From contig JAACUG010000068.1 of the NCBI GenBank assembly GCA_009993045.1, positions 1 through 57,579 of the forward strand: DNA of 57,579 nt, read 5' to 3'. Within the stretch, counting starts at the first letter, position 1. Each line of letters starts with the position of its first letter. This stretch comes from Cyanobacteria bacterium CG_2015-22_32_23 (GTDB lineage Bacteria > Cyanobacteriota > Cyanobacteriia > Cyanobacteriales > Cyanobacteriaceae). A program made the translations under genes and the position numbers. Shown piece by piece: positions 34,094 through 57,423 of the stretch. Under the pieces are notes generated by a model. The model saw only the letters and a list, made by a program, of their open reading frames with translations. It ran no database searches and was not told the origin of the DNA.

Positions 34094-35395
34094 ATGTCTG
34101 TGGTTATCATTACCGAGAATAAATTTATGAATAATCCTTTTAATTTACATTCCGCAGTCATCTATAACAATATTGACCTTGTTAAAAACATATTAGAAGA
34201 AAAAAACCTTATTCAAGTTATTAGTAACAAAGAAAAAAATCAATCTTTAATTTATGCTGTACAAAAAGGATATATCGACATTATTGAATTATTAATTAAT
34301 CATGGTGCGGATGTTAACTTTCAAAATTTCCCCCATAAAATGACACCATTAATGTTTGCTTGTGCGATAAATAATCCTTCTATATGTGAATTATTAATTA
34401 ATTATGGTGCTAATGTTAATCTTACTAATGATGACGAAACTTCTTGTTTAATGATTGCTAGTTATAAAGGATTCACCGCCATTGTGGAAATATTACTCCA
34501 ACATAATGCACAAGTTAATCTTCAAGATTTAGACGGTGATAACGCTCTTTATTTAGCCATTAAATCGAATCATAAAACCGTTGTTTGTCTTTTAATGGAC
34601 TATGGTGCAGATGTTTTTATGGATGATGGTGCATTAAGTATTGCTATTGATACCAATAATCTCAAAATGGTTAATCTTTTGCTGGAAAAAAAAGTAAATG
34701 TTAATCAAGGAAATCGAGACGGAGTTACTCCTTTAATGACGGCTTGTGCCCAAGGAAATTTAGCCATAGTAGAGAGATTATTACAAGCAGGAGCAAATAT
34801 TAATCATCAAGATTTAACTGGGGATTCCCCTTTACACTTAGCAGTATTAGAAGATCATTTAAAAATTGTCATCTTATTATTACAAAATGGAGCAAAAGTA
34901 AATATTATTAATCAAGAAAGAGATTCACCTTTATTAATTGCTACTTTACAAGGCTATACAGAAATAGTAGCCCAATTATTAGCTTATGGCGCTAATCCCA
35001 ATTTTCAGAATCAACAAGATACACCTCTAGGTTTAGCTATCGTTAATGGTTGGCAAAAAATCGCTATGGATTTAATCCAAGCTGGTGCAAATCCCAATAC
35101 TAGACTCCTTGATGGTAAAACAATTTTAATGAAAGTTTGTGATCAAAATAATAAAGAATTAATTTCAAAGTTGTTGAAAGCTGGAGCTGATGTTAATTTA
35201 GAAGATAAAGGAGGAGGTACAGCTTTAATGTGGGCATCTCATCGAGGATATTTAGAAGCTGTAAAATTATTACTTGAAGTCAAAAATATTAACATTCATC
35301 ATCACAATCACGGAAATTATACCGCCGCTAGTTTAGCTGAGTATAATCATCATCCTGAAGTAGCAAAGTTTTTAAAAGATTGGGAAGTCAAATAA
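34094..35395 (+). CDS. Ankyrin-repeat protein
   Basis: The 433-residue product consists of about 12 ankyrin repeats of roughly 33 residues (TPLMxAxxxGxxxIVExLLxxGAxVN). There is no signal peptide or enzymatic domain, so it is probably an intracellular scaffold for protein binding. The first ATG is at 34094; an ATG at 34127 (MNNPFNLHSAVIYNN) would give a cleaner repeat start. One repeat (about 175-190) lacks part of the consensus. Its partner is unknown. Confidence 0.88.
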   Translation: MSVVIITENKFMNNPFNLHSAVIYNNIDLVKNILEEKNLIQVISNKEKNQSLIYAVQKGYIDIIELLINHGADVNFQNFPHKMTPLMFACAINNPSICELLINYGANVNLTNDDETSCLMIASYKGFTAIVEILLQHNAQVNLQDLDGDNALYLAIKSNHKTVVCLLMDYGADVFMDDGALSIAIDTNNLKMVNLLLEKKVNVNQGNRDGVTPLMTACAQGNLAIVERLLQAGANINHQDLTGDSPLHLAVLEDHLKIVILLLQNGAKVNIINQERDSPLLIATLQGYTEIVAQLLAYGANPNFQNQQDTPLGLAIVNGWQKIAMDLIQAGANPNTRLLDGKTILMKVCDQNNKELISKLLKAGADVNLEDKGGGTALMWASHRGYLEAVKLLLEVKNINIHHHNHGNYTAASLAEYNHHPEVAKFLKDWEVK

Positions 35396-44196: not shown

Positions 44197-46326
44197 ATGA
44201 ATATTAATAATAATTCAATTAGACACATATTATCATTAGAATCAGGTCCATGGAAAAAAACTTTTTTTCTCGACAAAAATATTTATTCCATTGGGAGAAA
44301 TTCTAGTAATTCCTTAGCTATTCATCACCGAGTTATTTCTCGAAATCATGCTAGTTTAATTAAAGTAACTTATGGTAATTTTAACCATGAATTTCAATGT
44401 CAAAGTATTTTTTGGATTATTGACGGAGATTTAAAAGGAAATAAAAGTACTAATGGTATTTATGTTAACGGAAAACAATGTAATTTTCATCAGTTGCAAC
44501 CCGGGGATTTAATTTTTTTAGGCGGCATAGAAGTTAAGGCTAAATATGATATTGTTGATTTGCAAACTAGAACTTTTTTTAGTCTTTCTTCTGAGTCTAA
44601 AAATTCTCTTATTAACTTTGAAAATCTTGATAATAAACAGTCTTTAGCCATAATCAAAGATGAAGATGTTAAACTTTTTGAATTAATGGGTGAAGGGGTT
44701 TTAATTATTGATATAAAAACTAGACAAATTTTAAATGCTAATTCTAAGTATTGTCAATTAGTTAATTATTCTTTTGAGGAGATAACTACTTTAAGTATTG
44801 ATGATTTATTTGTTGTAGAAAAAAGTATTTTTGATCATGATTTAGATATATTAGAAAATTATAATATTTCTACCATGAGAGAATCAATAAATAAAAGAAA
44901 AGATAAGAGTTTCGTTAATGTTTTACTTAATTATACCCCGATAAACTTTCAAAATAGAAAATGTATTTTAGTCACGATACAAGATATTAATGAATTAAAA
45001 AAAGTAGAAGAAGTTATCCGTTATCAAACTACCCATGATTCTCTTACTAACTTACCCAATAAAAAATTATTTAGAGAACAATTATTATTATCTTTAGGTC
45101 ATAATTTAATTAAACAAGAAAACTTAGCTATCATTAAATTACGATTTAACAACTGGGAAAATATTAGTTATAAATTTAATATTGAGAAAGAAAATAAACT
45201 CATTCAAATGCTTATTGAAGTGATTAGAAAAACTCTTTTTGCAGGAGATTCTCTAGGCAAATGGTCAGATAATGAGTATATTATTATGGTAGAAGAAACT
45301 AAAAATAATAATAGGGTAAATGATGTTATTCAAAATATATTATTAAATATCAATAAACCGTTAATTATGGATGATCAATGTATCCTTATTACTGCTAATT
45401 TTGGTATTAGTGTCCATCCTCAAGATGGCGATAATATTAGAGGTTTATTAAATAAAGCTACGATGGCTTTAACCAAAAGTTATGATAAATCCTTTAATAC
45501 TTATCAATATTATAGTAGGGAAATATCTTCTCAACTTATGGATAAAAAATATGATTTTCAAACTTTAATTTTTAAAGCTATTACTGAAGAAAAATTTATA
45601 GTAAAATATAATCCTATTATTAATGTTAAAACTAATCAAATATCTGGTTTTAATAGTAAATTATTTTCCGAAGAAATAGACTTAACTGAAAATGAGATTA
45701 TAACCCTAGCTTCAGAAATAGGTTATACCGATAATTTAATCCGATTATGGTTAGAAAAAATTTCCCAAGATATTAGTTTTTTTCAAGAAAATAGTTTGCC
45801 TGTCAATAAAGTTAGTCTAAAAATATTACTATCTTCTCTAAGTAATATTGATACGGTAAATTTACTCATCGAAATAATAACAAATCCTGAAAAAAATCTA
45901 GTTAATATTGAGTTAGAAATTATTATAGATAATTATTTATTTGATATAAAAATAGTTGAAGAAAATTTGAATAAACTTATCAATATTTCTGTAGCTTTAA
46001 GTTTATCTAATCTTGATATTAATAATTTAATAACTTTAAGTCATCAAAAAGTAAAATTTACTACTATCAAAATATCAGCATTTATGATTAATGAGTTAGA
46101 AAATAATTCTAAAAATTTATCTTTAATAGCTAGTATTATTAACTTGGCAAAATCTTGTAAATTAAACTTAATCGCCGAAGGAATAACTACAGAAAAACAA
46201 AAAGATATTCTCCTAGATTTAGATTGCCAAGAAATGGAAGGAATTTTCTTTACTCCTCCACTATTACCTGAAAATATTAAAGATTTTTTAGAAAGTAATT
46301 CTCTATCTTTTATGTCAGTTATTTGA
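44197..46326 (+). CDS. FHA-PAS-GGDEF-EAL protein with degenerate catalytic motifs
   Basis: The 709-residue soluble protein has an FHA phosphothreonine-binding domain (about 20-115; SIGRNSSNS, ISRNHASL, STNGIYVNG), a PAS domain (about 160-270) and a GGDEF domain starting at TTHDSLTNLPNKKLF. The active-site GGDEF is replaced by SDNEY near 357-361. A C-terminal EAL domain follows, with GFNSKL in place of EAL at 484-489 and few metal ligands. It probably does not make or cleave c-di-GMP but may bind it, joining Ser/Thr phosphorylation and second-messenger signalling. That role is inference. Confidence 0.88.
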   Translation: MNINNNSIRHILSLESGPWKKTFFLDKNIYSIGRNSSNSLAIHHRVISRNHASLIKVTYGNFNHEFQCQSIFWIIDGDLKGNKSTNGIYVNGKQCNFHQLQPGDLIFLGGIEVKAKYDIVDLQTRTFFSLSSESKNSLINFENLDNKQSLAIIKDEDVKLFELMGEGVLIIDIKTRQILNANSKYCQLVNYSFEEITTLSIDDLFVVEKSIFDHDLDILENYNISTMRESINKRKDKSFVNVLLNYTPINFQNRKCILVTIQDINELKKVEEVIRYQTTHDSLTNLPNKKLFREQLLLSLGHNLIKQENLAIIKLRFNNWENISYKFNIEKENKLIQMLIEVIRKTLFAGDSLGKWSDNEYIIMVEETKNNNRVNDVIQNILLNINKPLIMDDQCILITANFGISVHPQDGDNIRGLLNKATMALTKSYDKSFNTYQYYSREISSQLMDKKYDFQTLIFKAITEEKFIVKYNPIINVKTNQISGFNSKLFSEEIDLTENEIITLASEIGYTDNLIRLWLEKISQDISFFQENSLPVNKVSLKILLSSLSNIDTVNLLIEIITNPEKNLVNIELEIIIDNYLFDIKIVEENLNKLINISVALSLSNLDINNLITLSHQKVKFTTIKISAFMINELENNSKNLSLIASIINLAKSCKLNLIAEGITTEKQKDILLDLDCQEMEGIFFTPPLLPENIKDFLESNSLSFMSVI

Positions 46327-46554
46327 TGAATACTCTATTAATATATTGCCTATTTTGAAGTAAAAATTAAATTTAAAGTAAATTTATACTCTAAACTCTC
46401 TTTTCTCTCAAAGTCGAATCAAAGTAATTTTTTTTGCGTATTCACTAACTCAAAGTTTTTATGTCATTAACTGTGCCAACTTTCTCATATTGTTTTAAAA
46501 TAAGATTAACTTTTGTTACAAATATTAAAATATATCTCAGAATTTAACTTCCTA

Positions 46555-47265
46555 ATGCGTTTTTTTAAACCTCATCAACCAATTTTACAAACAAAGCAAT
46601 TATCCCTCAATCCACAACAATTAACCTTAATGAAATGTTTAATAATCAAGCCTTTAAAAACAATACATTTATGTGGAATTTATACTTGTATTGATCAAGC
46701 AATGATTATTTGGGGTGTCGTTGCCGCTATAATTTTTATGACTGCTCAATTTTCTCCTTTTAATTGGGTACATCAAGCTACTTTTTGGTCTATTATTACT
46801 TTAATCGGTGTTATCCTCATGACTGTTTTAACTTATTCTTGGACTGTACTTGAAAAAATTTCTTGGTTACTATATACTTGGATAATTTTAATGGTTGTAG
46901 GTATTATTATTACTGATTGTGCGATCGCCTATAATTGGAGTTTTATTGTTTCTCATTTATGCGCTTTGTGGTTAATATTAAGTGGCATCGGCTATGGTTT
47001 TACTGGTTGGGGAATGAGATCAAGAGCGTTTTTTATTTCTAGTATAATTCATTTAAGTGCAATATTCATTTTACCCTATTTTATTTCTTGGCAATTTTTC
47101 ATAACAGGAATAGTGATGATGAGTAATTTATTTATCTTTTCTGAGGTACAATGGGATATGTTATTACCCAGAGAATTAAGAGAATACTCTGAGAAAAATT
47201 TTCATAAAAAAAATCAATCTTCTTCCTATTTTATCGAAAAAAATCCTCTAATTATTCACTTTTAA
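46555..47265 (+). CDS. Conserved membrane protein
   Basis: The ATG at 46555 gives 236 residues with about six membrane helices between residues 45 and 205. A soluble N-terminal segment (RFFKPHQPILQTKQLSLNPQ) and a polar C-terminus flank them. HIP1 sequence lies within the gene. The family is common in cyanobacteria, but I cannot assign a function. A TTG at 46513 is an alternative start. Confidence 0.75.
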   Translation: MRFFKPHQPILQTKQLSLNPQQLTLMKCLIIKPLKTIHLCGIYTCIDQAMIIWGVVAAIIFMTAQFSPFNWVHQATFWSIITLIGVILMTVLTYSWTVLEKISWLLYTWIILMVVGIIITDCAIAYNWSFIVSHLCALWLILSGIGYGFTGWGMRSRAFFISSIIHLSAIFILPYFISWQFFITGIVMMSNLFIFSEVQWDMLLPRELREYSEKNFHKKNQSSSYFIEKNPLIIHF

Positions 47266-52438: not shown

Positions 52439-53167
52439 TTATTTCACCGCCACTATAACAACGGTAATGTTGTCAGATCCCCCTCCATCTTTAGCATTTT
52501 GTACCAATAAACTGGCTGCTTCTTCTAAGTTTTCTGTTTCCCCTAAAGATTTACTAATCAGATCTGGTGCTACTTCTTCGGTTAAACCATCACTACACAA
52601 TAAAAAGCGATCGCCGGGTAAAATTTCTGGTATTTGTTGAATATCAATACCTTCGTATAAATCTCTTCTGCCTAAACATTGAGATAAAACGTGTCGCCAA
52701 GGGTGATGTTTAGCATCTTCAACGGTAATTTCTCCCGCACGAATTGCTTGAGAGATCCATGTATGATCTAAGGTTATTTGTTCTAATTTTTCTCCGTGCA
52801 GATGATAAAGTCGAGAATCTCCCACATGAGCTCGCCAAGTTTCCCCATTTCTAAACATGATCATGACTAATGTTGTACCCATATCCGCCCTAGCAGGATG
52901 GTTACTTTGATCTTCTAAAATACCTTCATTAGCTTGATAAACAGCTTTCTCTAGTAAATCATAAGAGTCCACGGGAGCATCCCAATTAGCTTCTAAATAC
53001 TCTTTAATTACATCTGTGGCAATTTTACTGGCTTCTTCTCCTCCAGCGTGTCCACCCATACCATCGGCTAAAATAAAAAATCTACCTTCAGGATCAATGT
53101 AATGATTATCTTGATTATAAGGTCTAACTAATCCGGGATCGGTTAAACCAGCAAATGCACATTTCAT
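52439..53167 (-). CDS. PP2C-type serine/threonine phosphatase (Stp1/PphA-like)
   Basis: The 242-residue product has GLVRPYNQDNHY, LADGMGGHAGGEEAS, and GGSDNITVVIV, which provide the Asp residues for the metal centre of PPM phosphatases. It lacks extra domains. Relatives include Stp1 and the PII phosphatase PphA, so PII or a Ser/Thr kinase substrate is possible. It is encoded 29 bp after the ABC1-type kinase gene on the same strand, which makes co-transcription likely. Confidence 0.93.
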   Translation of the reverse strand: MKCAFAGLTDPGLVRPYNQDNHYIDPEGRFFILADGMGGHAGGEEASKIATDVIKEYLEANWDAPVDSYDLLEKAVYQANEGILEDQSNHPARADMGTTLVMIMFRNGETWRAHVGDSRLYHLHGEKLEQITLDHTWISQAIRAGEITVEDAKHHPWRHVLSQCLGRRDLYEGIDIQQIPEILPGDRFLLCSDGLTEEVAPDLISKSLGETENLEEAASLLVQNAKDGGGSDNITVVIVAVK

Positions 53168-53196
53168 AAAGTTAATCTGATTATTATTGTAATAAA

Positions 53197-54948
53197 TTAC
53201 AGTTTACGGTCGAATTTACCTAATTGTTTAAGTAAACGAAACAACGAAAAAGCTGGAATGACACTGATAATAGCAACAACTATTGCTAATTGCCAAAGTC
53301 CGTTAACAACCAGTATAGTACTAGATAGAATTAAAGCACTCATAAATAAACTATAGTTAGTTGCCATTTGCATTCCAGCGATACGGCGTAATAATCGTTC
53401 CGACTCTAATGATCTTACCCTTAAACGGAGATCTCCCCGTTCTAATTTTTCTATTGTATCCTCTAATCGTCTTGGCAAACTCAAAGCGCTATTACTAACT
53501 TGTATTGCTTGACGGCTAAATTCATCAAAAATTGATTTACCGACTCCATTATTATTAAAATCACTCATGATTTGTAAAGCAAAAGGTTGTGCTACCTCCA
53601 TAAAATTAAAATCTGGATCTAATCCTTTTCCAACACCCTCAAGGGTAGAAAAAGCGCGCATCACAAAGGTGAAAGTAGCAGGAAAACGGAAGGGTTGATC
53701 ATAAGCTATTTCGTACAAATCTTCACTAATTTTACTGATAGATTGCTCCTCAAAGGGTTTATCCATAAAATTATCTAGCATAAATTGTACCGATCTTCTA
53801 ATAGGACCTGGATCATCCATTACCGCTAAAGCCTCTAAATCTATTAAAGCATTAACCACACGATCTGCATTTTTTTCTGTGACACCAAATAACATCTCGA
53901 TTAGTTTTTCTTTGACATTACTTTTGAGTTGTCCCATCATACCAAAATCGTAGAAAATTAATGCTCCATCACTTGCTACAGCCAAGTTACCCGGATGAGG
54001 ATCAGCATGGAAAAAACCATCATTTAATAGCTGTTGTAAATAGGCTTTTGCTCCTAATTTGGCTAATACTTTTCGATCTAATCCTGCGGCTTCTAAAGCT
54101 TCATAGTGATTAATTTTAATTCCAGGCAGATATTCTAAAGTTAATACCCGAAAAGAAGTATAACGCCAATAAATTCTTGGTACTTTTACCCAATTAGCCG
54201 AGCGAAAATTACGTCTAAAAGTATCGGCACTACGTCCTTCTTTTAAGTAGTCAGTTTCCTCCCATAAAATACGAGAGCATTCTTCATAAATGGCTAACCA
54301 ATCCTTTCCTTTTCCCCAACGAGGATGATTTTGAAAATAACGAGTAATTTGTTTCAGAATAGCTAAATCAATGGTAAATAATTGCGGTAATCCGGGGCGT
54401 TGAATTTTGACAACTACTTCTTCCCCTGAGTTTAACTGTGCTTTATGAACTTGTCCTAAACTTGCGGCTGCTAAGGGTGTAGGATCAAAACTACGGAATA
54501 ATTTATTTAAAGGTTTTCCTAAATCTTTTTCAATAATAGCTGTAACTTGTTCAAAACTAAAAGCTGGAACTCGATCTTGTAACTTGGATAGTTCTCTAAC
54601 ATATTCTGCGGGAAAAATGTCCTCACGAGTAGAAAATAATTGACCTACTTTAATAAAGGTTGGCCCTAATTCTAATAAATTTTCTCGAATCCATGCTGCT
54701 TGAATTTGCCGACGTTGCGATCGCTTTTCATCAGTATAACCATTAGCATAAGTCCATTTTTTGCTATTACGCCAAAGTTTGAAAATCAGAATTAAAACAA
54801 AAGTCCAAATATCAATACGACGACGAGCAGGAGAGTAATTATCTCGATTCCAACGATAACTTTTTTTTCCAGCTTCAGGCTTATTCGATATTACTAAAGG
54901 GCTACTTGAAGGTAAATATTCTTTTGGATTAGGGTAAGTTGCTGACAC
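53197..54948 (-). CDS. ABC1/UbiB/AarF-family atypical kinase
   Basis: The 583-residue protein has the family hallmarks: KxGQ loop in FIKVGQLFSTR, Ala-rich loop AAASLGQVHKA, ExD in the helical extension and FFHADPHPGNL for the catalytic loop with YDFGMMGQ. Two hydrophobic segments near the C-terminus (about 540-575) anchor it in membrane. Family members support quinone or prenyl-lipid metabolism. In cyanobacteria and plastids they associate with plastoquinone and tocopherol. The start is GTG at 54948. Confidence 0.92.
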   Translation of the reverse strand: MSATYPNPKEYLPSSSPLVISNKPEAGKKSYRWNRDNYSPARRRIDIWTFVLILIFKLWRNSKKWTYANGYTDEKRSQRRQIQAAWIRENLLELGPTFIKVGQLFSTREDIFPAEYVRELSKLQDRVPAFSFEQVTAIIEKDLGKPLNKLFRSFDPTPLAAASLGQVHKAQLNSGEEVVVKIQRPGLPQLFTIDLAILKQITRYFQNHPRWGKGKDWLAIYEECSRILWEETDYLKEGRSADTFRRNFRSANWVKVPRIYWRYTSFRVLTLEYLPGIKINHYEALEAAGLDRKVLAKLGAKAYLQQLLNDGFFHADPHPGNLAVASDGALIFYDFGMMGQLKSNVKEKLIEMLFGVTEKNADRVVNALIDLEALAVMDDPGPIRRSVQFMLDNFMDKPFEEQSISKISEDLYEIAYDQPFRFPATFTFVMRAFSTLEGVGKGLDPDFNFMEVAQPFALQIMSDFNNNGVGKSIFDEFSRQAIQVSNSALSLPRRLEDTIEKLERGDLRLRVRSLESERLLRRIAGMQMATNYSLFMSALILSSTILVVNGLWQLAIVVAIISVIPAFSLFRLLKQLGKFDRKL

Positions 54949-55908: not shown

Positions 55909-57423
55909 ATGTTTAAGCCATTATCAGATCTAGTAAAATCTTTTGGGAAAGACTCAGGCAATTTGTTGAAAAATCGTTACCAATTACTTAATCAAGTCGG
56001 TAGAGGATCTATGGGACAAGTGTATAAAGCCATAGATAAATCATCAAATAATACAACTATTGCCATTAAATTTTTATCCCAAGCACTCTTAGATGAAAGA
56101 ATGCGCCGAAGATTTGAAACCGAAGCAAAAATAAGTGCTTTATTAGGAGAACAAAGTAATCATATTGTCAAGGTAAAAGATTATGGTTTAGACAACAATC
56201 AAGTTCCTTTTTATGTGATGGAATATTTAGAAGGAGATGATTTAGATCAATTAATCAAAAATAAGGCTATTTCTTTAAGTCGATTTTTATTTTTAATACG
56301 TCAGATTTGTTTAGGATTAGAATGCGCCCACAATGGTATTTTAGTTAACGGCGAATTAGCTCCTATTATTCATCGAGATATTAAACCTAGTAATATATTT
56401 TTAGCAAAAGATTCTGACAGTGAAGGAATTATTAAAATTTTAGATTTCGGTATTGCTCAAATTCATAATTCTGATCAAGGTACATTACAAAAAAGTTTTA
56501 TGGGTACTCCCGAATATTGCTCTCCCGAACAAATGGCTGAAGACGAGTTACACCCAACTTCCGATATTTATAGTTTAGGTGTTTTGATGTACCGAATGTT
56601 AACCCAAAAAAATCCTATTGAAGCTGAGAATCGTACTTTTCAAGCGTGGTATCGAGCACATCATGAAAATAACCCTAAACCTTTACCTAATTATTTACAG
56701 TTACCTAAAGATTTAGATACTTTAATTATGAGATGTTTGTCTAAATCTCCTAGCGATCGCCCTCAAAATATGGGTGAAATAATGAGAGTTATTTATCCTT
56801 TAGAAAGAGAATATAAAAGTCGTAAAACTTCGGAAACTATTTCTTTTAATGAGAGTAGAAAAAGTCACGAAACTTTGCCATTACAACAAATATATCTTCA
56901 AAGTAGTTGGCCTAGTGATAAACCCCAGAAAAAAATTGTTTTTCCCTGTTTAACAGATGCTCAAGAAGGTACTTTTTCTAGTTTATGGACAATGTTAGAA
57001 TCTCAAGATATAAATGTTTTTGTACCTAAATCTACTCTTTGCTTTAATCATTTCATCTTTCAAGAATCTCCCCATCCAATGATTTTATGGGTTAATTTAC
57101 TTTATTGTCGTGAATATGAACCTAAATGGTTACCTTGTTATTTAGATTTAAAAACAGAAATAGGTTATCAAATTACAATTAATTTATGTGCTAATAGTTT
57201 ATATTATATTATATTATTTGAACTAGATAAATCTAATCAATATCAGCAAATATTAACAGTTAAAATTAATGAAGAAAAAACTAAACAATTACAAAGTTTT
57301 TTAGTAAAAAGTGCTTCTTTTAAAGGAAAAAATCAGGCTGAAGTAAGTAAAATTGCACTGAAAAAACAATTTGAATCTATTAAAAATAATATCCTAAATT
57401 CTATTGATCGTTCTCATAAATAA
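55909..57423 (+). CDS. Serine/threonine protein kinase
   Basis: The 504-residue product has a Hanks-type kinase domain (about 24-300): Gly loop VGRGSMGQVYKA, Lys in IAIKFL, HRDIKPSN, DFG in ILDFGIAQ and GTPEYCSPEQ. No membrane segment is present. The C-terminal ~190 residues (SSWPSDKPQKK onward) form a domain seen in other cyanobacterial kinases, of unknown function. A near-identical mobile-element end lies on each side. It may act with the PP2C phosphatase and the FHA protein in this window, which is inference. Confidence 0.93.
   Translation: MFKPLSDLVKSFGKDSGNLLKNRYQLLNQVGRGSMGQVYKAIDKSSNNTTIAIKFLSQALLDERMRRRFETEAKISALLGEQSNHIVKVKDYGLDNNQVPFYVMEYLEGDDLDQLIKNKAISLSRFLFLIRQICLGLECAHNGILVNGELAPIIHRDIKPSNIFLAKDSDSEGIIKILDFGIAQIHNSDQGTLQKSFMGTPEYCSPEQMAEDELHPTSDIYSLGVLMYRMLTQKNPIEAENRTFQAWYRAHHENNPKPLPNYLQLPKDLDTLIMRCLSKSPSDRPQNMGEIMRVIYPLEREYKSRKTSETISFNESRKSHETLPLQQIYLQSSWPSDKPQKKIVFPCLTDAQEGTFSSLWTMLESQDINVFVPKSTLCFNHFIFQESPHPMILWVNLLYCREYEPKWLPCYLDLKTEIGYQITINLCANSLYYIILFELDKSNQYQQILTVKINEEKTKQLQSFLVKSASFKGKNQAEVSKIALKKQFESIKNNILNSIDRSHK

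Follow-up and report, generated by a model that had tools for sequence, protein, structure and literature searches.

A degenerate FHA-PAS-GGDEF-EAL gene

The window, by which we mean the whole stretch of 57,579 nucleotides that was analysed, comes from Cyanobacteria bacterium CG_2015-22_32_23 and lies on a contig that belongs to a 3.27-Mb draft genome. The first-pass annotation had described an FHA-PAS-GGDEF-EAL open reading frame at positions 44197-46326 with both catalytic motifs lost. The frame has exactly these coordinates, and all four Pfam domains of its 709-aa product exceed the curated cut-offs (Table 1), in an order that fits the cyanobacterial FHA-PAS-GGDEF-EAL family; the protein also groups with other members of this family in the 92-row and 46-row trees described below. 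With four domains above cut-off, and with orthologues that align throughout, a chance match or a mis-translation is ruled out. The best NCBIfam model for the protein, that of the phosphodiesterase DibA, scores 164.8 bits, where its cut-off is 980, and the best sequence match of its FHA region to a solved structure is Slr1951 (PDB 3hx1; E 8.3e-11), a likeness limited to that region.

An AlphaFold2 model of the protein, built from a 40-sequence alignment, has a mean pLDDT of 83.3 but a pTM of 0.49, such that the folds are well modelled and the mutual arrangement of the domains is not. The top PDB matches to this model in Foldseek are DosP, PA0861, MorA and PA0575, all of which are GGDEF-EAL proteins.

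Table 1. The FHA-PAS-GGDEF-EAL gene, its domains and motifs, and other annotated genes of the window (positions are those of the window).
Feature	Position	Strand	Remarks
FHA-PAS-GGDEF-EAL gene, 709 aa	44197..46326	+	ATG start; both GGDEF and EAL degenerate
FHA domain, residues 30-109	44284..44523	+	Pfam E 1.2e-12
PAS domain, residues 159-264	44671..44988	+	Pfam E 1.6e-6; fast-evolving (identity comparison, dN/dS)
Degenerate GGDEF domain, residues 279-432	45031..45492	+	Pfam E 3.4e-19; site table
SDNEY replacing GG[DE]EF, residues 357-361	45265..45279	+	From sequence
Degenerate EAL domain, residues 460-688	45574..46260	+	Pfam E 1.1e-22; missing from 5/14 genomes carrying the gene
FNSKL replacing xEALL, residues 485-489	45649..45663	+	From sequence
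TPR protein gene, 243 aa	43258..43989	-	Divergent to the FHA gene; adjoins it in 7/9 full-length genomes
PP2C-like phosphatase gene	52439..53167	-	PP2C_2 E 1.1e-15
Ser/Thr protein kinase gene	55909..57423	+	Pkinase E 7.4e-48

Loss of catalytic and ligand-binding residues

We take residues 318 and 359 to be the GGDEF metal ligands, residue 348 to be the I-site Arg and residue 429 to be the phosphate-binding Lys, on the basis of PleD; from EAL structures, we take residues 486, 490, 542, 577, 604, 605, 625 and 661 to be the catalytic and substrate positions of the EAL domain. The window protein has Asn at both metal-ligand positions (N318 and N359), F348 in place of the I-site Arg and Y429 in place of the Lys. 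Among the eight EAL positions, K625 and E661 alone remain; N486, K542, I577, S604 and N605 replace the Glu, the catalytic Asn, the second Glu and the Asp pair, respectively, and the Gln at position 681 is Glu. An active diguanylate cyclase would be expected to carry GG[DE]EF and the metal Asp, where the window protein has SDNEY and N318; an active phosphodiesterase would be expected to carry the EAL Glu, the catalytic Asn, the second Glu and the Asp pair, none of which is present. The loss of both motifs was thus rightly called in the first-pass annotation, and it extends beyond the two motifs. As far as sequence can show it, both catalytic sites are dead.

The first-pass annotation had also proposed that the motif losses be checked in relatives, and they proved to be conserved. 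In a clade of 13 orthologues, eight of them full length, an intact GGDEF motif is found in none of the 13 rows and an intact EAL motif in none of the eight. The GG pair is lost in all 13 rows, the motif being either S-[DAE]-[DN]-E-[YF] or R-D-D-[EQ]-F; the metal Asp is Asn318 in 13/13 and the Lys near the domain end is Tyr429 in 13/13, Ser stands in place of the I-site Arg in 12 rows and Phe in one (the window protein), and E360 and D359 are kept in 12 and 11 rows, respectively. Glu486 is kept in none of the eight full-length rows and the catalytic Asn is Lys542 in every one of them; K625 and E661 persist in 8/8, and Q681 in 7/8, with the window protein as the exception. A contig-cut copy in genome G003 has SPNEY and NSQ, and so is likewise without both motifs. 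The intact paralogue found in most of the same genomes keeps the positions listed above in 13/13 rows, save for the I-site Arg (11/13). Across the 66 tree rows outside the clade and the intact paralogue, the first position of the GGDEF motif is Gly in 39 and the EAL Glu is present in all 66. Judged from these alignments, loss of the GGDEF motif beside an intact EAL is common in the family, and it is the loss of the EAL site that sets the clade apart.

Degenerate EAL domains that act as c-di-GMP receptors keep ExLxR, and degenerate GGDEF receptors keep RxxD, by the account given in PMC10333796. In the window protein the ExLxR positions read N-S-K-L-F, and the E, L and R seen in LapD/FimX-type receptors are each kept in none of the eight full-length rows; of the RxxD I-site used by receptors of the PopA/PelD type, the Arg is kept in 0/13 clade rows and the Asp in 13/13. 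The loss of both signatures disfavours c-di-GMP sensing, and with it the c-di-GMP-sensitive output that had been suggested for this protein; by the criteria set out in PMC10333796, it would be classed as a non-binder. Given that K625, E661 and Q681 persist, a ligand site could survive.

Distribution and descent of the clade

The family to which the window belongs consists of unicellular cyanobacteria; of its 15 genomes in the analysis, 14 contain an orthologue, and the exception (G005) is a genome that is 67% complete. The gene is full-length in nine genomes, with the G003 copy split over two contig ends. In the other five (G006, G009, G012, G013 and G014), which come from one related genus, the EAL domain is missing and the proteins are 452-566 aa long. 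The GGDEF domain is retained in all 14 genomes that carry the gene. We considered whether the EAL-less copies might be broken genes with an EAL remnant nearby, and rejected this: when the fetched flanks of the five genes, of which G014 has little downstream, were searched by tblastn, six EAL queries gave no remnant, with a best E of 0.65.

In a 92-row tree, the 13 clade rows group together (SH-aLRT 100), apart from the 13-row clade of the intact paralogue, which covers 13 genomes and does not include G003 or G014; the same 13-row grouping appears in a 46-row tree with support of 100/99. Both trees are unrooted, such that a clade is one side of a branch, and the G003 copy was left out. Relatives included those from a scan of genome contigs, which gave 59 loci. 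Left out of the 92-row tree were proteins shorter than 550 aa (590 aa for contig-scan loci), rows in which no FHA motif could be recognised, the contig-cut G003 copy, loci L105-L120, 21 named redundant loci, and duplicates. In the 92-row tree, L010 stands nearest to the clade, at an SH-aLRT of 91, a placement without such support in the 46-row tree. On these trees, the catalytic-site losses are inherited within one clade.

The FHA domain is the best-kept part of the protein

The FHA residues G33, R34, S48, R49, H51, S84, N86 and G87 are invariant in all 13 clade rows. These make up the GR, SRxH and S.NG elements of phosphothreonine-binding FHA domains, present in 13/13, and binding is predicted. 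Beside the pocket, T85 is replaced by Arg in three of the 13 rows, all three EAL-less.

Because the degenerate protein and its intact paralogue occur in the same genomes, their domains can be compared directly. Over 28 pairs among the same eight genomes, which are non-independent, mean identity in the degenerate protein versus the intact paralogue is 68.3 versus 73.6% for FHA, 42.8 versus 77.4% for PAS, 47.2 versus 75.6% for GGDEF and 37.4 versus 71.6% for EAL. The first-pass annotation had allowed for a PAS ligand; a conserved one is not indicated by a PAS identity of 43% against 77% in the paralogue. For the six pairs of the EAL-less genus in which both proteins are present, the corresponding values are 65.8/78.2 for FHA, 38.7/82.7 for PAS and 58.3/80.8 for GGDEF. 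By these measures the FHA domain is the best-kept domain, also in the EAL-less genus, though it is loosened there: the lower identity (65.8 versus 78.2%) and the Arg at T85 in three copies point to weakened constraint, which slightly lowers our confidence in the adaptor reading set out below. Positions conserved across the family (at least 85% in the 79 other rows) are retained by the clade, on average, to 94% in FHA (21 positions), 76% in GGDEF (14 positions) and, in its eight full-length rows, 38% in EAL (57 positions); PAS has no such position.

Estimates of dN/dS from four close pairs within the clade are 0.04-0.11 for FHA, 0.07-0.22 for GGDEF, 0.05-0.35 for PAS and, from three of the pairs, 0.07-0.23 for EAL, compared with 0.01-0.11 over all domains of the intact paralogue; these values are rough, since synonymous divergence is high in some pairs. 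Not every pair shows relaxation: between G007 and G010, the degenerate protein does not exceed the paralogue in dN/dS for either PAS (0.053 versus 0.075) or EAL (0.070 versus 0.071). The sequences indicate that the reading frame is under purifying selection, and dN/dS of at most 0.35 in each domain in the four close pairs disfavours a pseudogene.

Neighbouring genes and paralogues

The TPR gene is separated from the FHA gene by 207 bases. It adjoins the orthologue in G000-G004, G007 and G010, which represent two genera; in G008, in G011 and in the five genomes without EAL it is located elsewhere. At E 1e-20, 48 of 60 genomes have relatives of the TPR protein, and the TPR gene is therefore not special to the clade. 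Five distant matches to it encode a Pkinase domain together with TPR repeats (5/5), which we treat as a lead only, since these matches were hand-picked for frames of ~700 aa and TPR repeats resemble one another. A sixth locus, in G005, holds a 1126-aa TPR open reading frame, with no kinase start in the part examined. Most other genes flanking the orthologues in the fetched stretches have no match to genes of the window. Of the stretches examined, three (the window, G002 and G003) encode, on the 3' side of the FHA gene, a 250-aa protein without a Pfam match (46513-47265 in the window).

The first-pass annotation had pointed to a Ser/Thr kinase and a PP2C phosphatase in the same window. Both are indeed there, but a conserved linkage to the FHA gene is not borne out by its relatives. 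The flanks of the gene, taken from 12 genomes as 13 stretches and also from the short G014 locus, contain no match to either. When all 15 genomes of the family were searched directly, PP2C matches came up in 14 and kinase matches in every one; in the eight other genomes where a best match lies on the gene's own contig it is at least ~70 kb away, the nearest being the G004 kinase at ~72 kb, and in the remaining genomes, which are drafts, the matches lie on other contigs, where distance to the gene cannot be judged. We therefore rejected linkage to the kinase or the PP2C gene, which, as far as the flanks and the shared contigs show, neighbour the FHA gene only in the window.

Two further arrangements in the window were recorded: a gene for an ABC1-family atypical kinase adjoins the PP2C-like phosphatase gene (52439-54948 for the two), and a 433-aa ankyrin-repeat protein is encoded beside tRNA-His (34094-35395).

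Elsewhere, the window's genome encodes at least four further FHA-GGDEF-EAL proteins in graded states of decay, two of which keep both motifs (one on C128, and the third of a tandem on C93). The C93 tandem consists of three FHA-GGDEF-EAL genes (L034:1796-9036), of which the first has both motifs altered, the second has lost only GGDEF, and the third keeps GGDEF together with EVL.

A middle segment apparently lost on two branches

The spacer between the FHA and PAS domains is ~158-186 residues long in rows of the intact paralogue and in L010, and 154 residues long in the EAL-less proteins of G009 and G014; it measures 33-38 residues in the eight full-length clade copies and 49-53 in G006, G012 and G013. 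On the 92-row tree, we read this as two separate losses, each on its own branch, of a middle segment some 100-130 residues long. A Pfam search of five of these segments, with E values up to 10, found no known domain above cut-off, and one of the five (L064) gave a sub-threshold PAS match (E 0.1).

One Gomphosphaeria protein (L013, equivalent to L064:7995-10496) has SGDEF and the metal Asp in its GGDEF domain, while its EAL domain is half-decayed and has the same Asn-to-Lys change as the clade. In a tree of EAL domains, this protein, from one genome, adjoins the clade with support of 95/96; in a tree of the FHA-PAS-GGDEF portion it is not joined to the clade, and joining is not rejected (AU p 0.17). 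Long branches may produce the placement in the EAL tree. The Gomphosphaeria gene stands in tandem with an intact FHA-PAS-GGDEF-EAL copy.

Comparison with known systems

By described architecture rather than by sequence, the window protein resembles CdgSH (All1175) of Anabaena sp. PCC 7120, an FHA-PAS-GAF-GGDEF-EAL protein; CdgSH keeps its catalytic residues and works as a bifunctional enzyme in which phosphodiesterase activity dominates (PMC8682488), whereas the window protein keeps neither site. With the window protein as query, relatives of ~876-880 aa were recovered by sequence from Nostocales. An FHA-GGDEF-EAL protein with conserved residues is reported for 23 of 24 Microcystis genomes (PMC7063779). 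In DgcB of Bdellovibrio bacteriovorus an FHA domain is also joined to GGDEF, and its pocket residues S75-R76-H78 correspond by motif to S48-R49-H51 of the window protein; the DgcB structure (6hbz) is among the Foldseek matches to our model, at rank 39. DgcB is described as an active cyclase whose FHA domain reads its own N-terminal tail (PMC6733907); the window protein, by contrast, has few residues before its FHA domain, has PAS and EAL domains, and has a dead GGDEF.

Among degenerate proteins, CsrD of Escherichia coli has a degenerate GGDEF and a degenerate EAL, like the window protein, and is described as acting through other molecules without binding c-di-GMP (PMC10333796). CsrD differs in having GAPES4-HAMP instead of FHA-PAS and in targeting CsrB/C RNA to RNase E, and the NCBIfam CsrD equivalog scores 53.2 bits on the window protein against a cut-off of 663. 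The inactive EAL proteins YdiV and STM1697 are likewise described as neither hydrolysing nor binding c-di-GMP and as acting by protein contacts (PMC10333796), although they are EAL-only proteins without FHA, PAS or GGDEF domains. LapD and FimX have a degenerate GGDEF-EAL pair and a fold similar to that of the window protein, but they keep ExLxR for c-di-GMP binding (PMC10333796), which the full-length clade rows have lost in 8/8; the NCBIfam LapD model gives 52.4 bits against a cut-off of 1020. As far as can be told, the window protein works like the dead proteins of the CsrD/YdiV type, while its descent places it in the cyanobacterial FHA-PAS-GGDEF-EAL family. In the listed titles and abstract openings of the open-licence literature on cyanobacterial FHA and GGDEF proteins, on c-di-GMP in Geminocystis and on FHA, kinase and TPR proteins in Synechocystis, we found no description of this clade.

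A putative phosphothreonine-reading adaptor

We propose, with a probability of roughly 0.57, that the window protein is a non-catalytic, phosphothreonine-reading adaptor: a member of the cyanobacterial FHA-PAS-GGDEF-EAL family that became a pseudo-enzyme and probably no longer takes part in c-di-GMP turnover. We infer that its FHA domain binds phosphothreonine, that it does not bind c-di-GMP, and that it acts as an adaptor. A Ser/Thr kinase would phosphorylate a threonine of a partner, to which the FHA domain would then bind, and the PAS-GGDEF core, together with EAL where this is present, would serve as a dimerisation or partner-binding scaffold, such that phosphorylation would lead to the assembly of a protein complex instead of a change in c-di-GMP. 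As a functional neighbour, the divergently encoded TPR protein would be the strongest candidate.

The main rival is that the dead GGDEF pairs with the GGDEF of an intact FHA-PAS-GGDEF-EAL paralogue in the same cell and tunes that enzyme in response to phosphorylation. This would fit with the retention of GGDEF in all 14 genomes while EAL was lost in five, with the better conservation of GGDEF than of EAL (47 versus 37%), and with the further FHA-GGDEF-EAL proteins of the genome, two of which have both motifs; there is also a precedent in E. coli, where the degenerate GGDEF of CsrD is described as contacting that of DgcT (PMC5635695). Set against it is the uncertain arrangement of the domains in the model (pTM 0.49), and on balance we consider such a pairing unlikely.

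A receptor in the manner of LapD or FimX, in which a dead EAL or GGDEF still binds c-di-GMP and relays it, seems improbable: both folds are well modelled, LapD structures (3pjw, 6pwk) are among the Foldseek matches and K625 and E661 are kept throughout the full-length rows, but each of the E, L and R of ExLxR is gone from those rows, the I-site Arg is gone from all 13, and EAL is the least conserved domain and is missing altogether from one genus. We give slightly less credence still to a gene decaying towards loss, with a C-terminal half that has no function. The absence of EAL from 5/14 genomes, the FHA-PAS segment lost on two branches and the fast evolution of PAS and EAL could all be read in this way; nonetheless, the frames are long and uninterrupted in the 13 rows used, a lone TAG in G012 and in G013 falls within a few codons of the match end and is consistent with the open reading frame's own stop, dN/dS is far below 1 in every domain, including GGDEF and EAL, and the gene is missing from the family only where the genome is 67% complete. 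Active relatives tolerate a degree of variation in these motifs, but a diguanylate cyclase or phosphodiesterase still active with motifs such as these is very hard to credit when both GGDEF metal ligands are Asn and the EAL domain of the window protein lacks the Glu, the Asn, the second Glu and both Asp.

For the adaptor reading, we tentatively suggest a course of events, to which we give somewhat less than even odds, that leads stepwise from an enzyme to a pure phosphothreonine adaptor with the FHA domain held fixed: the EAL site would have gone first, as the Gomphosphaeria copy with SGDEF and a half-decayed EAL hints, the GGDEF site next, and after that the middle segment (twice) and the whole EAL domain (once). 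The product would handle Ser/Thr-kinase signals outside c-di-GMP signalling, possibly with the TPR protein, whose repeats are similar to those found joined to Ser/Thr kinases.

Genomes that carry a dead FHA-PAS-GGDEF-EAL protein alongside an intact paralogue amount to a natural experiment, which gives domain-by-domain evidence of the part that is still needed. Censuses should take it as a warning, in that such proteins should not be counted as c-di-GMP enzymes. If the adaptor reading is true, c-di-GMP machinery has been recycled in cyanobacteria as a scaffold for protein phosphorylation, and the FHA domain would be a bait for kinase substrates.
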